DNA from: Desulforegula conservatrix Mb1Pa
Lineage (GTDB): Bacteria; Desulfobacterota; Desulfobacteria; Desulfobacterales; Desulforegulaceae
Assembly (NCBI RefSeq): GCF_000426225.1
Contig: NZ_AUEY01000040.1
Span: forward strand, 1 to 35,737
Direction of reading: 5' to 3'
DNA length: 35,737 bases
The notes beneath the pieces are model-generated. The model made no database searches. It was not told the DNA's origin and saw only the letters and a program-made list of their open reading frames with translations. The position numbers were made by a program, and so were the translations under genes. Positions 3,665 to 26,940 of the stretch are shown here, piece by piece; the stretch's first letter is position 1; every line of letters starts with the position of its first letter.

Positions 3665-5122
3665 TTATCCAATCATAATATTTTCTTCAGCATAGAAAAA
3701 AGCGGCCTGGCTTTTTCTTGAAATTGCGATGGCAATCATCAGGGGGCCGAGTCTTCCTATAAACATGACGCCAGATATTATAAGCTTGCCAAGTACGGTT
3801 AACTTTGAGGTTATGCCCATGGAAAGACCAACTGTTCCAAAGGCGCTTACTGTCTCGAAAAGAATTGTCATCAGGCCGCCCTGGCTCTCCGAAGGTGACA
3901 GTCCCTTGAATTCGGATATGAGGAGCAGCATGACCGAGGCTCCCACAAGGGTCATGCTTATAAGGACTACGTTTATGGCCCTGGTTATACTCTGGTTAGG
4001 GATTGTTCGGCAGAAAATTTTTGTGTACTCATGGCCCCTGAGTTTTGATATCGCAAGAAGGGTCAAAGTCGCGGCAGTAGTTGTTTTTACTCCACCTGCG
4101 CATGAGCCGGGACAGGCCCCGATGAACATCAGAAGTATGCAGATCAAAAGGCTTACTCCTGTCATTCCCCCGATCGGAATTGTATTAAATCCCGCCGTTC
4201 TTGTGCTAACTGACTGAAAATATGCGCACAGAATTTTGTGACAAGGAGCAAGCTCGGCCAGGGTGTTTTCCCATTCAAGAAAAGCTATTGAAACTGTTCC
4301 GAAAATTATCAGTATGGCAGTTGTGACAAATACAAGTTTTGTGTGAAGGCTAAGTCTTCGTATTCTCTCCCTTGTGTATGGAAGCCTTCTCCATATTTCG
4401 GCAAGAACAAGAAATCCTATACCTCCTAAAATAATGAGGGAGCTTATTGTCAGGCTTACAATCCAGTCTGTCTTGTAATTTTCAAGACTATTTGAAAAAA
4501 GAGCAAAACCAGCGTTGCAGAAAGCGCTCACAGAATGAAAAACAGCGCTGTATACGCCCTTTACCAAGCCCTGTTCAGGAACAAATCTGCAGGCAAGAAG
4601 AGCGGCTCCAATACCTTCTATTATAAGAGTGAATTGGAGAACCTCTTTCGCAATGGTGGCCGGGCTTCTTTGGCCTCCGTGGGTATACGTATCCTGAATC
4701 ACGTCCTTTTCAGTCAGGGACAAACGTTTTCCGGCCATCATCATGAATATTATTGAGAGGGTCATTATGCCCAGACCGCCTATCTGAATAAGGGAAAGCA
4801 GAACTATTTCACCAAAAAGGTTGAATTCCCTGCCGACATCTATTGTGGCAAGTCCTGTTACGCATACTGCGGAAGTGGATGTGAACAGGGCATCAATGAA
4901 AGATACGTTTTTGTTTTCGGCTGAAATTGGAAGTGAAAGCAGAAAAGCCCCCAGAAGTATGATTCCGAGGAAGGAGAGAACAAGAATTCTTGATGGATCA
5001 TGGATGATGTTTTTGGCTCTTCTTTTCAATCTGGCCTTTAAGCGTTCCTTATTTTTAATCTCAAGAACCAGGGTTTTAAGTCGCCACAGATTATTGGATA
5101 AAGGCCGTCTGGATATCTTCAT
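3665..5122 (-). CDS. ktrB: KtrB/TrkH-type potassium transporter membrane subunit
   Basis: This 485-residue integral membrane K+ translocation subunit belongs to the SKT superfamily. Four pore-loop repeats are visible, each with the filter glycine: SAVCVTGLATID, SAFCNAGFALF, STRTAGFNTIP and SAFGTVGLSMG. The start is set at 5122, where CACAGGAATAC precedes the ATG. The frame stays open for 44 more codons upstream to 5254, but that extension is just the translation of a dispersed 131-bp repeat (VIPAQAEIQ and so on) and is not protein. ktrA lies directly downstream and completes the uptake system. Repeat element A sits within 25 bases of the start codon, so the promoter must lie inside or beyond it. 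Confidence 0.92.
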   Translation of the reverse strand: MKISRRPLSNNLWRLKTLVLEIKNKERLKARLKRRAKNIIHDPSRILVLSFLGIILLGAFLLSLPISAENKNVSFIDALFTSTSAVCVTGLATIDVGREFNLFGEIVLLSLIQIGGLGIMTLSIIFMMMAGKRLSLTEKDVIQDTYTHGGQRSPATIAKEVLQFTLIIEGIGAALLACRFVPEQGLVKGVYSAVFHSVSAFCNAGFALFSNSLENYKTDWIVSLTISSLIILGGIGFLVLAEIWRRLPYTRERIRRLSLHTKLVFVTTAILIIFGTVSIAFLEWENTLAELAPCHKILCAYFQSVSTRTAGFNTIPIGGMTGVSLLICILLMFIGACPGSCAGGVKTTTAATLTLLAISKLRGHEYTKIFCRTIPNQSITRAINVVLISMTLVGASVMLLLISEFKGLSPSESQGGLMTILFETVSAFGTVGLSMGITSKLTVLGKLIISGVMFIGRLGPLMIAIAISRKSQAAFFYAEENIMIG

Positions 5123-18040: not shown

Positions 18041-18171
18041 ATGGACTCGCAAAAAGACAAATGAAAGCGACGGTGTCATGCCAGATTTGATCCGGCATCC
18101 AGTATTTTCAGACACTTCTGGATTATGGCCTGCGCCGCAATGAATTAAATCTGACTTTTTGCGACCTTGTC
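18041..18171. mobile_element. MITE-like repeat, copy B
   Basis: This 131-bp element starts ATGGACTCGCAAAAAG and ends CTTTTTGCGACCTTGTC. Internal blocks GTCATGCCAG and GATCCGGCATCCAG (left) and CTGGATTATGGCC (right) are recognisable. Flanks TGATTTG (18034-18040) and ATATTTG (18172-18178) agree at 5 of 7 positions. It ends 49 bases before the GspE-like start codon, so the gene's promoter lies within or across it. Confidence 0.8.
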
Positions 18172-18220
18172 ATATTTGATTCAGTTCTTTTTCGGATTGT
18201 TCACGCGCGGAGGGGACCAT

Positions 18221-19924
18221 ATGATAAAACGCAAAATAGGTGATATTCTTATTGAAAAAGGCCTTGTCACAGACGAACAGGTCGGCACAGCCCTTGCTCT
18301 CCAGAAAACAAACAAGAGAAAGCTTGGTATTATTATGGTTGGCCTTGGTTATCTGACCGAGGAAGAAATAATTCAGACTCTTTCAGAAAAATTTGATTAC
18401 GAGGTTGTTGACTGTGGAGAGCTTACCCTTACCGAGCAGCTGATGAATCTTGTTCCAAAAAAGATGGCGGAAAAAGAGGTTATAATTCCGGTCGAGCTTG
18501 AAGGCAAGAGGCTGAAAATAGCTGTTTCCGACCCTCTCAATCTTGGGGCAGTGGATGATCTGAAGTTTAGAACAGGCCTCAACATCGATATAGTCCTTTC
18601 AACAGAAACCTCGATAATGGCTGCGGTTGAAAGAAATTACGGAAAGAGCGAGCAGATATGGAGCCTTATAAAAGAAATTCCCACACACTCTGAAGTGGAA
18701 TTTTTAAAAGAGGAGGAGGAGAAAAACCATCGTTATGTCGAAGCTGAAGCCCTTATACGCCTCAGCGCTACTCCTCCGATCATAAAACTTGTAAGCATGA
18801 TCTTTGTGGACGCCGTCAAATCAAGGGCAAGCGATATACATATTGAGCCCGGTCAGAATCAGGTCAGGGTCAGGTACAGGATTGACGGTGAGCTTGTCGA
18901 GGCTCATAAATATCCAAAAGAAATCATGGATTCCGTCGTGTCAAGGGTAAAAATTCTTTCGAACCTTGATATAACAAACAGACGCACCCCCCAGGACGGA
19001 AGGGCATCCATAAGATACAAGGACTCCACAGTCGATCTCAGGGTTTCGACCCTTCCTTCAATTTATGGTGAAACTATAGTAATAAGAATTCTGGATAAAT
19101 CCATGGGGCTTATCAAGTTTCATGATGTTGGTATGCCAGACAGAATTCAAAGGCTATATTCAGAAATTATTGCAAACCCACAGGGTGTAATAATAATTAC
19201 AGGCCCCACCGGAAGTGGTAAAACCTCTACTATTTACGCATCACTCAATCAGCTTGTTTCTGAACAGAAGAACATAGTGAGTGTCGAAGATCCGATAGAA
19301 TTCAATATGCCCGGAATTACCCAGACCCAGGTTAATGAGGCCGTAGGGCTTACATTCCCTGTGGCTTTAAGGGCTTTTTTCAGACAGGACCCTGACATCA
19401 TGATGGTTGGAGAGGTACGAGATCTCGAGACCGCCCAGATAGCTGTAAGGGCGGCCCTGACAGGCCATCTGGTCATTACGACCCTGCACACCAACGACGC
19501 TGTTTCAACCCTAACCAGACTTATAGATATAGGCGTTGAAAAATTCCTTGTGGCTTCAACAGTAATAGGAATCATGGCCCAGAGGCTCGTTCGCAAGATA
19601 TGCCCCAGATGCAGGGTGGAGATCGATGTCCCTTCAATTTATAAGGCTTCTCACCTGCCTGTAATATCAAGATGCTTTAGGGGAGCTGGTTGTGATCATT
19701 GCCGACAGACAGGGTATTGGGGGCGAATAGGAGTTTTTGAACTTCTTCCTGCAACTCCCAGGATAAAATCGGCTCTTTCAGGCGACTTCAGTGAGGAGGC
19801 TCTCTGGGAAGCTGCCAAGGCCGAAGGTTTTACGACAATGTTCGAAGATGGAATCAAAAAAATAGAGGAAGGTGTCACAACGATTGAGGAAGCATTTGCA
19901 AAAATCCCTTATGTACAGAGATAA
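18221..19924 (+). CDS. GspE/PilB-type secretion or pilus assembly ATPase
   Basis: This 567-residue cytosolic ATPase would power type II secretion or type IV pilus extension. The start at 18221 has GGAGGGG 6-7 bases upstream; an open extension to 18167 runs back into repeat copy B. An N-terminal MshEN-type domain (KIGDILIEKGLVTDEQVGTA, two repeats, about residues 1-145) is followed by the N2 domain (RASDIHIEPGQNQVRVRYRI). Then come Walker A GPTGSGKT (residues 328-335), the Asp box, and Walker B with RQDPDIMMVGEVRD. The His box (GHLVITTLHTND) and a four-cysteine zinc finger (CPRC, CDHC) complete it. No other gsp or pil gene is in the window, so it is an orphan here. Confidence 0.92.
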   Translation: MIKRKIGDILIEKGLVTDEQVGTALALQKTNKRKLGIIMVGLGYLTEEEIIQTLSEKFDYEVVDCGELTLTEQLMNLVPKKMAEKEVIIPVELEGKRLKIAVSDPLNLGAVDDLKFRTGLNIDIVLSTETSIMAAVERNYGKSEQIWSLIKEIPTHSEVEFLKEEEEKNHRYVEAEALIRLSATPPIIKLVSMIFVDAVKSRASDIHIEPGQNQVRVRYRIDGELVEAHKYPKEIMDSVVSRVKILSNLDITNRRTPQDGRASIRYKDSTVDLRVSTLPSIYGETIVIRILDKSMGLIKFHDVGMPDRIQRLYSEIIANPQGVIIITGPTGSGKTSTIYASLNQLVSEQKNIVSVEDPIEFNMPGITQTQVNEAVGLTFPVALRAFFRQDPDIMMVGEVRDLETAQIAVRAALTGHLVITTLHTNDAVSTLTRLIDIGVEKFLVASTVIGIMAQRLVRKICPRCRVEIDVPSIYKASHLPVISRCFRGAGCDHCRQTGYWGRIGVFELLPATPRIKSALSGDFSEEALWEAAKAEGFTTMFEDGIKKIEEGVTTIEEAFAKIPYVQR

Positions 19925-20520: not shown

Positions 20521-21072
20521 TCAAAGCTTATATGGTTTTACCACCTTGACGCTGCTGATAAAAGGCCGTGATTGATTGAACAAATACATGAGATTGAATC
20601 CGGTGCCATTGTCCGTGAAAAAAATATGGAAATCCCGGCTATCGATCATTCGTTTTAAGCCATTTCCAGCCATGTGAAAATAGGCTTTCCCCTTTATATA
20701 CCGGTCCATGACCCTATCAATTTCAAATCCTGTACCGGTGTCCTTTATTCTGATGATAAGGCCTTTTTCTCCGAGATAGACATTCAGTTCAATCGGTTTT
20801 GTTGGGTCTTTTTTGTGGCCGTGGCAGAATGCATTTGAAAGAGCTTCGCATATAATTCCTTTGTCACCAATGAGTTCAAATCTCAGGTGTGACATCCAGG
20901 GGTCGAGAACTCCGGCTATAATCCGTTCGTAAGTAAAAAGCCAGTCATACTCTGGTTTATAAGTGGAGTTAGGATTTTTTGTGCAGTCAGAAGGAATGAT
21001 TGTCTCGGTGAAAATAACCCTGCCATCAAAAATATTCATAAGGCCTTTGTCGAGATTGATGTCAGTTATCAT
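20521..21072 (-). CDS. RsbW/HATPase_c-type regulatory ATPase (anti-sigma-like)
   Basis: This 183-residue protein has a GHKL ATP-binding fold without a kinase dimerisation domain: N-box ICEALSNAFCHGHKKD (about residues 74-90), G1 box KDTGTGFE (about 110-117) and a GNGLKRMIDS G2-like segment (about 136-145). This is the arrangement of RsbW/SpoIIAB-like anti-sigma or switch kinases. The ATG overlaps the PHP gene stop by 4 bases (21069-21072), so translation is coupled. No sigma factor or STAS antagonist gene is adjacent, so its partner is not known. The Roadblock/receiver protein upstream in the same run is a candidate partner by context only. Confidence 0.78.
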   Translation of the reverse strand: MITDINLDKGLMNIFDGRVIFTETIIPSDCTKNPNSTYKPEYDWLFTYERIIAGVLDPWMSHLRFELIGDKGIICEALSNAFCHGHKKDPTKPIELNVYLGEKGLIIRIKDTGTGFEIDRVMDRYIKGKAYFHMAGNGLKRMIDSRDFHIFFTDNGTGFNLMYLFNQSRPFISSVKVVKPYKL

Positions 21073-21743
21073 AAAATCACCGTTTCTACATTTCCTTCCT
21101 TGGTCATGGGTGTTACCATGCCTTTTTTTATCATTTCCGCAAGATCTTTTTCGTGGTCAGGAAGATGGGGGAAACACGTGTAAACTTTGCCAAGGTTCTC
21201 GCTGCAATGGGCATCACTTCCCGCAACAGGAACCAGCCCCATACATAGGCAAAGGGTAATGGTTTTTGTTCTTATGTCGTCCCGTGTCATTGTCGATGCA
21301 ACCTCTATGCTGTCAACCCCGCTTACAAAAGCCTTGTTAGAACACAGACAGCCGGAGGTGTGATAGGGATGGACGAGGATGGTGACGGCTTGGTTTTCAT
21401 TTGCCAGAGCAATCAACCTTTCATATTCAATCCCAGGATAAATTCCCTTTGAATTATCAAGGCCAATGACAATTACATGGAACAGCGAGGTGCTTACTTC
21501 AACACCAGAATAAATCCTTCGTCCTTGCGGCAGACGCCTGTTAATCTCTTTAATCCTCTCATCTGGCCACATCCTGTTGTGTTCTGTTATGACAATGCCA
21601 TTTAGAACTTTTTTATCCATGGTGTCGGGAATAGTTTCCGGATTGTGCAGCTCGGCGCAGGCTGAACCGAAAGCTGTATGCACGTGCAGATCAATTCTGA
21701 CCTGCGCCGAATGTCCAGGCTTGTATATAGTTTCTTTTAACAT
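21069..21743 (-). CDS. PHP-domain phosphoesterase-like protein
   Basis: This 224-residue protein has the PHP metal motifs in order: RIDLHVHTAFGSA (HxH, about residues 17-29), VITEHNRMW (about 51-59), SGVEVS (Glu), VHPYHTSG and AGSDAH. They form the trinuclear metal site used by phosphoesterases such as histidinol phosphatase and 3',5'-nucleotide phosphatases. No polymerase domain is attached. It overlaps the downstream RsbW-like gene by 4 bases, which suggests that it belongs to the same signalling unit. Its substrate cannot be inferred; a small phosphorylated signal or nucleotide is possible. Confidence 0.85.
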   Translation of the reverse strand: MLKETIYKPGHSAQVRIDLHVHTAFGSACAELHNPETIPDTMDKKVLNGIVITEHNRMWPDERIKEINRRLPQGRRIYSGVEVSTSLFHVIVIGLDNSKGIYPGIEYERLIALANENQAVTILVHPYHTSGCLCSNKAFVSGVDSIEVASTMTRDDIRTKTITLCLCMGLVPVAGSDAHCSENLGKVYTCFPHLPDHEKDLAEMIKKGMVTPMTKEGNVETVIL

Positions 21744-21848: not shown

Positions 21849-23051
21849 TTATCTGAAATGCTCGGCAATTTCCATTATGATGGTTTCAAGCCTCATTTTT
21901 GACATTGCGACATTCCCTTCCTTGTCTATGACAATAACTACATGAACATGAGCTCTTCCTGCTGCCGTGACAGCATAATCTGTGGACTCATTCAGACAAC
22001 GCGTAAAAATATGAGCTTTGGGCGCCTCAATATGTACAAGCTGACCTCTGCCTACACCCATAATTTCCGTCGCCTTCTGAGCTTTCAGCAAGACATCGTT
22101 TGCAAGGGCTCCAAGTTCTGCCAGGTTTACTCCGGCTATATTTAATTCCGTTACAAGCTCCCCATGTGGAGAAAAAGCGCCCGCAGCCATAAAACCGTCA
22201 ACGGCCTTGAATTTGTCCAATGATTCTTTGATACTGGCCATGTTGTTAACTCCTTTTATTATGGGATTCCGGTTATAATCATGATCACCTTGCAGATGAT
22301 CATCCTTTAAAGTGTTTTCCAGGTTTTCTTCACATTCATTTATTTGATTTACGGTCGCCTGTTCCCGTATCTCCGCAGCCCTGCGTTCGTCCATCCTCTG
22401 CATGCCTTCCATGAGAATCTGCATGAGATTTGAATGAATGATCCGTTTAATTTTTTTTTGGGGAATTTTTTTGAAACCTATTTGAATATCCTGATATTCC
22501 AGAAGATCATATATTGCATCCACTCCTTTCACGCCTGAAAACACGGCATTTATCAGTTCTCCTCCCTCGAAATAAACATGGCCGATTTTTTCCTGTACCT
22601 TAACTTCAAGAAGGCAGGTCTTACGTTCGGAATGAATCAGCTGCATGAAACTTGAAAGAGAAATGCCAAATGAGCATTCATGTGAGTTATTGCGTACTGT
22701 TTCGATTATTGTTTTTGCAAAATCATTGAAATTGACTGGTTTTTCAAAAATTGTCATGGTTCGTTCAGGATTAAGCCTGCTTTCAATTTCCGGAGTGTTG
22801 AAAGCAGTCATGACCATCGCCGGAAGGCCTGGATAGTATTCTGAAATATGTGCAAGGACTTCAAATCCATCCATCTCAGGCATTTTAAGATCGGTAACAA
22901 CAAGATCGACCTCCTTGGAGCCAAGTATTTTGATTGCTTCGATCCCGTTTTCAGCCGTAATTATATTCAACTCATCGCTGAAAGGCTCAAAACCTTTTTT
23001 CATACTGAAAAGCAGAGAATTCTCGTCATCAATGATCAGAACGGTTTTCAT
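21849..23051 (-). CDS. Response regulator: receiver - DUF4388-like - Roadblock/LC7
   Basis: This 400-residue protein is read from the ATG at 23051 (MKTVLIIDDEN), with AAAGG 8 bases upstream; an open extension to 23120 has no site of its own. Residues 1-125 are a receiver domain (acidic Asp8/Asp9, phospho-acceptor Asp54 in VVTDLKMPEMDG, EKP with the conserved Lys). Residues about 130-230 resemble DUF4388/PATAN (SFMQLIHSERKTCLLEV, GHVYFEGGELINAVF). A polar, acidic linker follows. Residues 271-400 are a Roadblock/LC7-type domain (DGFMAAGAFSPHGELV, LAELGALANDVLLKAQ). Such domains bind small Ras-like GTPases (compare MglB). A strong internal ribosome binding site precedes codon 271, so a separate Roadblock protein may also be made. 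No MglA-like GTPase gene is in the window. Confidence 0.85.
   Translation of the reverse strand: MKTVLIIDDENSLLFSMKKGFEPFSDELNIITAENGIEAIKILGSKEVDLVVTDLKMPEMDGFEVLAHISEYYPGLPAMVMTAFNTPEIESRLNPERTMTIFEKPVNFNDFAKTIIETVRNNSHECSFGISLSSFMQLIHSERKTCLLEVKVQEKIGHVYFEGGELINAVFSGVKGVDAIYDLLEYQDIQIGFKKIPQKKIKRIIHSNLMQILMEGMQRMDERRAAEIREQATVNQINECEENLENTLKDDHLQGDHDYNRNPIIKGVNNMASIKESLDKFKAVDGFMAAGAFSPHGELVTELNIAGVNLAELGALANDVLLKAQKATEIMGVGRGQLVHIEAPKAHIFTRCLNESTDYAVTAAGRAHVHVVIVIDKEGNVAMSKMRLETIIMEIAEHFR
22239..22255 (-). promoter_or_regulatory. Internal ribosome binding site and in-frame ATG inside the Roadblock fusion gene
   Basis: AAGGAG (complement of 22250-22255) lies 8 bases before an in-frame ATG at 22241, the best-placed Shine-Dalgarno in this operon. 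Translation from here gives a 130-residue protein (MASIKESLDKFKAVDG onward) corresponding exactly to a complete Roadblock/LC7 domain. The preceding linker is charged and low in complexity, as if two genes had merged in frame. Confidence 0.65.
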
Positions 23052-23147
23052 ACCAATTGCCTTTAATATTAAAGGTTTCGAACACAGACCTAATATGTTC
23101 GGGTATAATGCTAAATACATGCCAATGACCGCAAACAGCCAAACTTG

Positions 23148-23548: not shown

Positions 23549-23762
23549 AAATTTCAAGGTCACCTTCAAGAGAAACGCTTCTGGAAGAGATCCATTTTAC
23601 AATGACTTGAGATCATGCTTGTTATTCATCAGGCAATATCATATATTTAATAATTAATTATCTACTTAAACACAGCCTCAATATTATTTTTAAACTTAAA
23701 AATCAGATATATTACGACTTTTTCCCATAACATATCTTTACTTGGATATTGCCGGGCAGAAT

Positions 23763-25604
23763 ATGAACGATGAAGATTGCAGAATTCTGATTATTGAAGA
23801 TAATCCCTTTGATTTCAAGCTAACAAGTAAACTTCTCGCCAAAAGCAACGTCACTTATTCGATAGAGTGGGCCAATACTCTCGGAGAAGGGATTAAAAAA
23901 CTGGGGGCTTTTGTCTTTGATGCCATACTTCTTGACCTGAATTTACCTGACAGCAATGGCATCGTGTCTTTGATGACCATAAGGAGCCTTGTTCCAACTA
24001 CGCCGGTCATTATCATCACTTCCCAGGATGATGAAAACACGGCTGTTCTTGCATTAAAATCAGGAGCTCAAGATTATCTTATCAAAGGGAAAATAGAAAA
24101 ATTCCTTCTTGAGCGCTCAATCCGTTACTCTATTGAACGCCAGCAGGCCGCTTTCCGGCTTAAGGTGCAAAATGATTTTCTCATGTCCATACTTGAGTCA
24201 TTGACACACCCTTTTATAGTGGTAGAAGCTCAAAATCACACGATTACAATCGCAAACTCATCGGCAAGAAAAAACTGGCTCAAGGAAATGATTTGTTGCA
24301 GCGAACCAGACCAGGCAAATTCCCGTCCCCATCCGTGCTGGAAAGACTCTTGCCCTGTTAAGGCTGTAATTGAGACTAAAAAGCCGGTCATGATGAAGCA
24401 TCATTATAAAGATGATTTTGAAAGGAACATGACGAACGAGGTTCACGCATTTCCTGTGATGGACTCTGAAGGGAGAAATGTTAAACAGGTAATAGTCTAT
24501 TTTCTTGATATATCCGAACAGGAAAATTCAAAACGGAAATACCAGCGCCTCAGTACCGTGGTACAGCAGTCCTCGGACAGTATCCTTATCATGGATACGG
24601 ATGAAATTATTCAATATGTTAACCCTGCTTTTGAACAGATGACAGGCTATTCAGGAAGCGAAATAGTCGGGCGGCCCTACAGTTTTCTTGCGAGCAGCAA
24701 GCACACAAACGAATTCTTCAGACACATCCGGACAACACTGGAAAAAGGACTAAGCTGGAGCGGCGTTCTTATAAGCAGAAAAAAAGACGCTACCATGTAT
24801 GAAGAAGATGTGGTGATCACTCCGGTAAAAAATGAAAAGAAGCAGATCATTAATTTTGTTTCGACCTCGCGGGACATCACGAATAAAAAACGACTGGAAT
24901 CCATAGCAGAAGCAGCTAACTTGATGACCAATATCGGTTACATTTTTTCGGGGATCCGCCATGAAATAGGGAATCCAATCAATTCGATCAAAATGGCTCT
25001 GACAGTTCTTAATAACAATATCAATAATTATACTATTGAGATGATCAAGGAATTCACCGAAAGATCCCTTGAGGAGGTTCTGAGGGTTGAATACCTTCTC
25101 AAGGCTCTTAAGAATTTCAGCATGTTTGAAAATCTTGATATAAAAAAAATAAATCTCAATGACTTTCTTAATAATTTTACAGGTCTGATCAAAGAGGATT
25201 TTCTTGAGAAAAACATCACCATAAAAAAAATATTGGCGCCAGAGCCTGCTCATGCCTATGCCGACCCAAGAGCCTTGCATCAGGTGCTTTTGAACCTTGT
25301 CACTAATGCGGTTGATGCGCTTTCCGAAATTGAGTCCCCTGTCATTATTCTGAAACTGGAGAAAAAAACACGACTTTTCATAATTGAAATTTCGGATAAC
25401 GGATGTGGCATGACGCCTGAGGAGCACTCTTATCTCTTTAAACCATTCTATACGTCCAAGCGTAACGGTACAGGTCTGGGACTTGTGATAGTGAAGAAAA
25501 TGCTTTCAAAAATGAACAGTACAATCAAGATCCTGAGTGAAAAGGACAAAGGGACAAGCGCAATGATTTTTATTCCGGAGGACAAGATTGGCAACTGCTG
25601 CTAA
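23763..25604 (+). CDS. Hybrid histidine kinase: receiver - PAS - PAS - HisKA - HATPase
   Basis: This 613-residue soluble sensor kinase starts at the ATG at 23763; a TTG at 23742 is also in frame but has no ribosome binding site. Residues 1-125 are a receiver domain with phospho-acceptor Asp58 (AILLDLNLPDS). A first PAS-like domain (about 145-255) holds a cysteine set, PHPCWKDSCP, that could bind a metal or respond to redox. A second PAS domain (about 262-385) has SSDSILIMDTDEIIQYVNPA. The phosphorylated His is His400 in GIRHEIGNPINSI; the N-box is HQVLLNLVTNAVDAL and the G1 box DNGCGM, with GTGLGL following. No membrane segment is present. It overlaps the regulator gene downstream by 17 bases, so the two form a cognate pair. 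Confidence 0.9.
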   Translation: MNDEDCRILIIEDNPFDFKLTSKLLAKSNVTYSIEWANTLGEGIKKLGAFVFDAILLDLNLPDSNGIVSLMTIRSLVPTTPVIIITSQDDENTAVLALKSGAQDYLIKGKIEKFLLERSIRYSIERQQAAFRLKVQNDFLMSILESLTHPFIVVEAQNHTITIANSSARKNWLKEMICCSEPDQANSRPHPCWKDSCPVKAVIETKKPVMMKHHYKDDFERNMTNEVHAFPVMDSEGRNVKQVIVYFLDISEQENSKRKYQRLSTVVQQSSDSILIMDTDEIIQYVNPAFEQMTGYSGSEIVGRPYSFLASSKHTNEFFRHIRTTLEKGLSWSGVLISRKKDATMYEEDVVITPVKNEKKQIINFVSTSRDITNKKRLESIAEAANLMTNIGYIFSGIRHEIGNPINSIKMALTVLNNNINNYTIEMIKEFTERSLEEVLRVEYLLKALKNFSMFENLDIKKINLNDFLNNFTGLIKEDFLEKNITIKKILAPEPAHAYADPRALHQVLLNLVTNAVDALSEIESPVIILKLEKKTRLFIIEISDNGCGMTPEEHSYLFKPFYTSKRNGTGLGLVIVKKMLSKMNSTIKILSEKDKGTSAMIFIPEDKIGNCC

Positions 25605-26940
25605 AAAAAGGCTTTTGATCATTGATGATGACCGTCTGTTCTGCGATTCTGCAAAGGAATATCTGTCAAGTATTCCTGTTGAAATCCATTTGGCAAACAC
25701 AGGACAAAGAGGGATTGAAATTTGCTCTGAAAAAAAAATGGATATAGTTCTGCTAGACCAGAAGCTACCGGACATCCCTGGTACGGATATCTATAAAACA
25801 ATCATTTCAAAAAACGAACAGACTAAAATTATCTTCATAACTGCATTCCCGGATCTAAAAGGAGCGGTCAATGCACTGAAGGAGGGGGTTCACGATTACA
25901 TAACAAAGCCGTTTGACCCCGAAGAATTGTCCATGTCTATTTTAAGGATGATTAGAACTATTGACCTTGAAAAGGTAGCCCAGATTCATGAATACACTCA
26001 AGGGCTTGAAACATTAGGGGCTTGTCTTGTTGGTTCAGGACATGTTGCAGAGGACCTGAAAAAGCTCATCGCTTGCGCTGCCGGAAGCCTTTCTCCTGTT
26101 TTTATAACTGGCGAAACAGGTACAGGGAAAAACAGAATAGCAAAAGCCATCCACTATGAATCCCCAGGCGCTGACAAGCCCTTTTTAACGGTAAACTGCG
26201 CGGCAATACCAGAAAATCTGATAGAATCAGAATTGTTCGGTTTGGAAAAAGGCGCATTCACAGGCGCTGTTCAATCAAAAAAAGGGCTTTTTGAACTTGC
26301 CGAAGGAGGAACTCTTCTTCTTGATGAAATTGGGGAATTGCCAGTTTCTGTTCAATCCAAACTGCTTGGCGTTCTTGATGAAAAGAAATATAAAAAAATA
26401 GGTGGCAGCAAGATGATTGATACAAATGTGAGAATCATCGCAGCCACAAATGTGGAAATTGAAAAAGCTCTGATGGAAAAATTATTCAGAAAGGATTTGT
26501 ATTTCAGATTGAATATCATTCCTGTTCATGTTCCTCCTTTGAGGGAGCGCATTGACGACATACCCGGGCTTGCCGCACATTTCATGAACAAGTTTTCCAG
26601 GAAAAAAAGTTTAAAAATTGCCATCAACGAAATTGAGAAATTACAGGCCTACAGCTGGCCTGGCAATATAAGGGAGTTGAGCAATATCATAGAGAGATCT
26701 GTTATCCTCGGAACCGGAGATGAAATAAAACCTTCTTCTTTAATAAAAACAAATTGTTACTTAAAATACAGTCGGACGCCATCCCTTGATCATTCCTGCC
26801 ATGTTTCGCTTAAACAGATGGAAATGTCCCATATTAAACATACGCTTGAAAATGTCTCAGGGAATTATACAAAAGCGGCAAAACTGTTAGGGATTTCCCG
26901 GTCAACACTTATGAGAAAAATCCAGGTCTACGGTCTTTAA
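25588..26940 (+). CDS. NtrC-family sigma-54-dependent response regulator
   Basis: This 450-residue activator starts at TTG (25588), supported by GGAGG 6 bases upstream, inside the end of the kinase gene. The receiver domain (residues 8-125) has DDD at 13-15 and phospho-acceptor Asp57. The AAA+ domain has Walker A GETGTGKN (175-182), with Asn in place of the common final Glu, and GAFTGA (222-227), which contacts sigma-54. LLLDEIGELP supplies Walker B. The C-terminal Fis-type helix-turn-helix reads NYTKAAKLLGISRSTLMRKI. It should activate RpoN promoters on phosphorylation by the upstream kinase. The only sigma-54 promoter recognised in the window is that of amt, but a link is not shown. Confidence 0.92.
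   Translation: MATAAKKRLLIIDDDRLFCDSAKEYLSSIPVEIHLANTGQRGIEICSEKKMDIVLLDQKLPDIPGTDIYKTIISKNEQTKIIFITAFPDLKGAVNALKEGVHDYITKPFDPEELSMSILRMIRTIDLEKVAQIHEYTQGLETLGACLVGSGHVAEDLKKLIACAAGSLSPVFITGETGTGKNRIAKAIHYESPGADKPFLTVNCAAIPENLIESELFGLEKGAFTGAVQSKKGLFELAEGGTLLLDEIGELPVSVQSKLLGVLDEKKYKKIGGSKMIDTNVRIIAATNVEIEKALMEKLFRKDLYFRLNIIPVHVPPLRERIDDIPGLAAHFMNKFSRKKSLKIAINEIEKLQAYSWPGNIRELSNIIERSVILGTGDEIKPSSLIKTNCYLKYSRTPSLDHSCHVSLKQMEMSHIKHTLENVSGNYTKAAKLLGISRSTLMRKIQVYGL

Follow-up and report, generated by a model that had tools for sequence, protein, structure and literature searches.

In type I-D, I-B and I-C CRISPR systems, the Cas11 subunit is made from inside cas10d and similar genes by means of an internal in-frame start, an arrangement described as widely conserved (PMC10212523). 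In type III secretion, one gene for SctQ (YscQ) gives rise to a long protein and to its C-terminal part, and the two are described as assembling together (PMC4295842); Spa33 and HrcQ appear to be related cases. We propose that a receiver-DUF4388-Roadblock gene of Desulforegula conservatrix Mb1Pa belongs to the same kind of genes, with a short product that is predicted from its sequence. As in the case of Cas11, an in-frame internal start would free the C-terminal part as a subunit; however, Cas11 is found in a nucleic-acid complex, whereas the gene described here encodes a signalling regulator. Like the SctQ gene, it would give both a long protein and its C-terminal part, but the domains and the process are different and the long form carries a receiver.

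Roadblock proteins are known to dimerise. In Myxococcus xanthus, the Roadblock proteins MglB and MglC and the response-regulator protein RomR act jointly on MglA, according to two reports (PMC9481161, PMC12719032). These are separate proteins, whereas in our case the receiver and the Roadblock part were fused, a free Roadblock copy was predicted and there was no adjacent GTPase gene. The actinobacterial conservons CvnA-D were described as combining a histidine-kinase-like protein, an MglB-type Roadblock protein and a Ras-like GTPase in one system (PMC13343842). Unlike them, the locus studied here had no GTPase gene alongside, and its Roadblock part was fused to the receiver. If DUF4388 is the same domain as PATAN, which we assume, then the fusion also resembles the cyanobacterial PATAN response regulators, although no Roadblock part is described for those. 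The latter proteins include PixE, PixG and LsiR, and PixE was hypothesised to bind PilB1 (PMC7690835). In the literature library searched, DUF4388 and roadblock were not mentioned together in any paper, and DUF4388 was mentioned in one. Additionally, this architecture did not appear among the matches listed by searches that combined Roadblock proteins with either response regulators or internal translation, or that addressed internal initiation within two-component proteins.

The fused gene and the fold of its C-terminal domain

The window, i.e., the whole stretch of 35,737 nucleotides that was analysed, contained the fused gene with the following features.

21849..23051, minus strand: full-length receiver-DUF4388-Roadblock-fold protein of 400 aa (frame open between ATG 23051 and its stop codon, 21849; Pfam and 27 fused genes read)
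22710..23042, minus strand: receiver domain, residues 4-114 (Pfam Response_reg, E 1.6e-19)
22383..22664, minus strand: DUF4388 domain, residues 130-223 (Pfam, E 6.7e-15)
22251..22364, minus strand: linker, residues 230-267 (pLDDT below 50 in the full-length model, poorly alignable)
22250..22255, minus strand: internal Shine-Dalgarno motif AAGGAG, 8 nt 5' of ATG 22241
22239..22241, minus strand: in-frame ATG of the internal start (codes for Met271 in the long form)
21849..22241, minus strand: predicted second product, a free Roadblock-fold protein of 130 aa (internal ATG, site present in 23 of 27 fused genes, fold)

The open reading frame list placed the start of the long form at 23120 (423 aa), and we adopted 23051 instead, in agreement with the first-pass annotation, since the homologues started there. 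The receiver and DUF4388 domains that the first-pass annotation had placed in a 400-residue protein, as well as the 130 residues counted from ATG 22241, agreed with Pfam and the open frame. Residues D8, D9, D54, T82 and K104 of the receiver (the acidic pair, phospho-acceptor Asp, Thr/Ser and Lys) were invariant in 16 aligned sequences, and the receiver appeared to have the residues needed for phosphorylation.

The same annotation had labelled the C-terminal part as a Roadblock domain, which held for the fold but not for the Pfam family. Namely, the Robl_LC7 score of the domain was 12.9 bits (E 0.095) against a curated cut-off of 23, and an E-value of 0.0046 or lower was reached in Pfam by one of 15 family members. 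A PDB sequence search with the domain profile returned weak Roadblock matches, the best of them with E 0.043. On the other hand, the secondary structure in the AlphaFold2 model of the domain followed the order H E E H E E E H, which is the Roadblock order; the mean pLDDT of the best model was 74.7, with the five models spanning 47.1 to 74.7. MglB and other Roadblock proteins were the best Foldseek matches of this model (MglB 3t1r_D, E 2.4e-6), and structure comparison matched it to Roadblock3 9jue_B (Z 15.0, 117 aligned, rmsd 2.2) and to MglB 1j3w_C (Z 14.1, 117 aligned, rmsd 2.1). The modelled C-terminal domain can be considered as a Roadblock fold with divergent sequence, which we do not class as Robl_LC7 proper. 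In the full-length model the first Roadblock helix spanned residues 266 to 283; therefore, Met271 would be located near the beginning of this helix.

Conservation of an in-frame ATG at the Roadblock boundary

We read 27 fused genes, that of the window included, from 25 genomes, 19 of which were from the same phylum as the window and six from records labelled Desulfobacterales, Desulfobulbaceae, delta proteobacterium or Proteobacteria. Ten loci came from the first scan of genome contigs. The domain profile had matches in 17 genomes out of 389 from the order and in three of 395 drawn from the phylum (the genome of the window was in both); when 389 genomes were drawn from the class, the matches were those 17 again. 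Moreover, the gene was found in two of 12 genomes in the order of the relative G446 and in six of 30 in the family of G151; thus, the distribution of the gene was patchy. Loci L002-L008 and L034-L037 were further copies of genes already counted and were not added. The main subtype comprised 22 genes, defined by a profile E-value of 1.5e-44 or lower in the order search or by at least 52% identity in the contig scan, and the five distant genes had profile E-values of 2e-8 to 4e-12. Full-length identity to the window protein was as low as 29% among the 16 aligned sequences.

The first-pass annotation had noticed the motif AAGGAG 8 nt upstream of an in-frame ATG, where the Roadblock domain begins; this was confirmed, and the site proved to be conserved beyond chance. 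At the Roadblock start, 23 of the 27 fused genes had an in-frame ATG whose Shine-Dalgarno site had an energy of -7.4 or stronger, which is the combination of a conserved ATG and a ribosome-binding site at a C-terminal domain boundary expected of a gene with two products. The first-pass annotation had named a lack of such conservation among homologues as a ground for rejecting two products, and this lack was not observed. The site was present in 21 of the 22 main-subtype genes and in two of the five distant ones (L033b and L020). One genome (G030) had two fused genes in tandem (L033 5342-8282), each with an internal start, and their Roadblock subtypes differed. In the remaining four genes (L032, L028, L029 and L019a), the stretch from -90 to +60 nt around the expected place contained no in-frame ATG preceded by a strong site; in three of these genomes (G037, G094 and G036) the profile found no separate Roadblock copy. 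These four genes count as evidence against the two-start reading and were left out of the statistics on ranking, clusters, columns, phases, openness and sigma-54 sites, which refer to the 23 genes with an internal ATG. In the ranking, cluster and column statistics the long-form starts of L011 and L015 were placed one codon late, with no effect on the internal site. In L022, two ATGs followed the Shine-Dalgarno motif and we used the second one, since it was the aligned one.

The linker before the site varied in length and aligned poorly, with the Met and the purine-rich stretch recurring nevertheless, and the internal Met occupied a single alignment column in 20 of the 23 genes. Twelve alignment columns had Met in at least 40% of the 23 rows, and the internal-start column alone was preceded by a strong site before every Met (20/20 at -7 kcal/mol or below, mean -8.8), with eight of 20 in the next-best column. 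The latter, column 420 (residue 383 of the window protein, near the C-terminus), had strong Shine-Dalgarno-like sites in those eight rows, and a start there would give a very short peptide. Since a second conserved Met column had eight such sites, strong sites were not rare by chance. In comparison with all in-frame ATGs of its own gene, the internal site ranked first in 19 of 23 genes and second in the other four; it was also stronger than the Shine-Dalgarno site of the long form's own start in 21 of 23. With the genes grouped into 11 clusters at 60% identity and Fisher's method applied to cluster medians, the p-value was 3e-9 against in-gene positions and 3e-8 against codon shuffling of the linker. 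Synonymous recoding, the strictest test, gave p 0.003 over the same clusters, with only 0.03-0.30 for single genes. The motif occurred in two codon phases (19 and four genes). In all 19 genes of the first phase the Gly codon was GGA, a codon that accounted for 4-45% of Gly elsewhere in those genes. RNA openness was discarded as evidence for the start: although the region was folded less than other parts of the gene, base composition explained this (mean 0.52).

It could be argued, though we find it improbable, that two neighbouring genes fused and that the old start of the second gene was left without function. Such an origin has a parallel in Cas11d, which was proposed to have arisen by fusion with a retained start (PMC10212523). 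Additionally, the relative G446 had a separate gene beside its fusion. Namely, its REC-DUF4388 fusion had a divergent Roadblock end without a strong internal start, and 57 nt past the stop of the fused gene there began a second gene, which encoded a Roadblock protein of 130 residues and had a Shine-Dalgarno site of its own (-8.8 kcal/mol); its start was set at 4599, the ATG after the Shine-Dalgarno site, rather than at 4584 as in the open reading frame list. In the Roadblock tree the stand-alone protein grouped with the fused domain of L027 (97/81). Several branches of this tree were long and most deep forks weak, and only this grouping was used. However, a functionless start would hardly be kept in 23 of 27 genes behind a linker that can be poorly aligned, nor would it be strong in both codon phases and exceed synonymous recoding across the clusters.

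As an alternative to two products, a recent gene merger had been offered in the first-pass annotation. This was disfavoured, since the internal site was conserved in two codon phases and the G446 gene grouped among the fused ones; moreover, the fusion was found in 25 genomes with identities down to 29%. The two-product alternative gained from the same observations. The suggestion that relatives might encode the Roadblock part as a separate gene was borne out by G446 alone: profile searches of the order, the phylum, the class, the order of G446 and the family of G151 found no other stand-alone copy. Thus, at least one lineage encoded a free Roadblock protein of this family separately, as predicted for a subunit that would otherwise be produced from an internal start.

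It is still less probable that the purine-rich site makes ribosomes pause between the domains and aids folding, with no initiation. The site is preceded by a low-confidence linker and followed by a folded domain, which would suit such a role, but pausing does not need an ATG 5-9 nt downstream of the motif, which was kept in 23 of 27 genes, or a shared alignment column for 20 of 23 of these Met residues. We give even less credit to the idea that constraint on a Lys-Gly...Met stretch of the protein creates the motif by accident. It would be in line with the means of -3.5 to -7.7 kcal/mol that sites retained after synonymous recoding and with the Gly at position -4 in 18 of 23 rows. On the other hand, L032 (genome G037) lacked the Met but kept the domain, and in four genes the motif was in a different reading frame. 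Since the motif occurred in two codon phases and GGA was used in 19 of 19 genes, neither a functionless remnant of fusion nor a constraint on the protein was expected to produce this pattern.

Neighbouring genes, a sigma-54-type site and GTPases

The following features were found around the fused gene, with 25 loci searched for homologues of its neighbours.

25588..26940, plus strand: receiver-sigma-54 activator-Fis HTH regulator (17 of 25 loci searched had a homologue adjoining the fusion)
23742..25604, plus strand: receiver-PAS-histidine kinase (homologue adjoins the fusion in many relatives)
23109..23124, minus strand: sigma-54-type -24/-12 promoter-like site (two mismatches, upstream of the long start)
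21069..21743, minus strand: PHP-domain protein (homologue 3' of the fusion in 11 of 25 loci searched)
20521..21072, minus strand: HATPase_c_2 (anti-sigma-like) protein (4-nt overlap with the PHP gene; the pair was 3' of the fusion in 10 of 25 loci searched)

The sigma-54 activator was located on the same strand upstream of the fusion in 15 of 25 loci and downstream of it in two (L019 and L020). The order of kinase, activator, fusion, PHP and HATPase genes was complete in six loci (L010, L011, L022, L023, L024 and L025); several of the 25 loci ended early at contig ends. In the window, the kinase and the activator pointed away from the fusion yet adjoined it, and L009, the closest relative, had no kinase or activator match within 12.4 kb. 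A PilB/GspE-type ATPase with an MshEN domain (18167-19924, plus strand) was rejected as a part of the system, its query having matched one of 25 loci (L029, 33.5%).

In 16 of 23 genes, the 100 nt upstream of the start of the long form contained a GG/GC -24/-12 element with at most two mismatches, compared with one of 262 within-gene control pieces, and in 17 of 23 genes no more than 1% of shuffled upstream stretches scored as well. In the whole window there was no excess of sigma-54-like sites (16 found, 20.8 expected). Therefore, the match in the window, which was not significant alone, carried weight only through its conservation. Because the element is conserved, the fusion can be placed among predicted sigma-54-dependent genes, and the activator encoded next to it would be the obvious candidate for its control. 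None of the 23 genes had a sigma-54-like site at up to two mismatches in the 200 nt that precede the internal start, which favoured one mRNA with two starts. Accordingly, a transcript of its own for the short form, in place of the long mRNA, had nothing found in its favour and is given as little credit as the protein constraint, with the scan covering promoters of the sigma-54 type.

The first-pass annotation had stated that no GTPase was encoded nearby and advised a genome search for MglA-like proteins. Indeed, searches for Arf-like and MglA-like GTPases had no match on the contig of the window (C40), and the fusion did not form an MglA/MglB-type module, i.e., a GTPase gene adjoining a Roadblock gene. 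The genome search found three MglA-like genes on contigs C52 and C33, MglA-like being our own name for them. The C52 GTPase matched the Pfam Ras family with 39.7 bits (cut-off 21.6) and NCBIfam small_GTP. The Roadblock gene adjoining it had a Robl_LC7 score of 35.4 bits (cut-off 23) and can be called MglB-like, with an NCBIfam score of 62.4 against a cut-off of 200. The same-strand cluster also included a REC-DUF4388 paralogue of the fusion (34% identity over 249 columns). As a whole, this cluster (L052 1817-9947) comprised a kinase, a receiver, the MglB-like Roadblock protein, the MglA-like GTPase, a HAMP protein, the REC-DUF4388 paralogue and small proteins. We considered the 120-residue protein encoded after the paralogue as a separate Roadblock gene and rejected it, as it had no Pfam match. 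A single-sequence profile comparison did not match it either, but this was uninformative because the same comparison also missed the MglB-like protein of the genome.

On contig C33 (L047 853-2655), another MglA-like GTPase gene was followed 12 nt later by a DUF4388-cNMP-binding gene, and the two were likely to form one operon. Elsewhere on this contig (L053 3002-5318), a receiver, the third MglA-like GTPase and a histidine kinase were encoded in a row, the receiver and the kinase being judged by eye. These arrangements were suggestive of a link between DUF4388 proteins and MglA-like GTPases in this genome, although not a specific one. Co-occurrence with MglA was rejected as evidence because it did not discriminate: MglA-like genes were present in six of six genomes with the fusion and in 44 of 52 without it.

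A possible mode of action

We conclude that the best reading of the locus is a conserved two-product gene with two start sites on one mRNA, with a probability of about 0.83 as judged from sequence comparison. The sigma-54-type promoter, conserved as a site, would yield one mRNA, on which ribosomes would start at both sites and produce the receiver-DUF4388-Roadblock regulator together with a free Roadblock subunit of ~130 residues. The short protein may be at least as abundant as the long one. Next, from what is known of Roadblock biology, the free subunit might pair with the Roadblock end of the long form, and we regard this pairing of free and tethered copies as an even bet. Phosphorylation of the receiver, either by the neighbouring kinase or by another one, could then alter the position or activity of the mixed dimer, and its target could be one of the MglA-like Ras-type GTPases encoded on other contigs; both the receiver and the GTPase steps are put forward tentatively and are more doubtful than the pairing. 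Taken together, the gene might serve as a sigma-54-controlled two-component output that supplies tethered and free Roadblock domains, with phosphorylation selecting the pairs and the mixed dimer regulating or localising an MglA-type GTPase in a switchable manner. This complete scheme is a speculative one, and we consider it no more probable than its receiver and GTPase steps.

Internal in-frame starts are easy to miss because gene lists give the long form. That this start is conserved among distant relatives suggests that a signalling protein has a hidden subunit, and it raises the question of why a Roadblock regulator would need both tethered and free copies of the domain. If the proposed scheme is true, then the response regulator would exert its action through a dimer formed with a separately made copy of the domain at its C-terminus.
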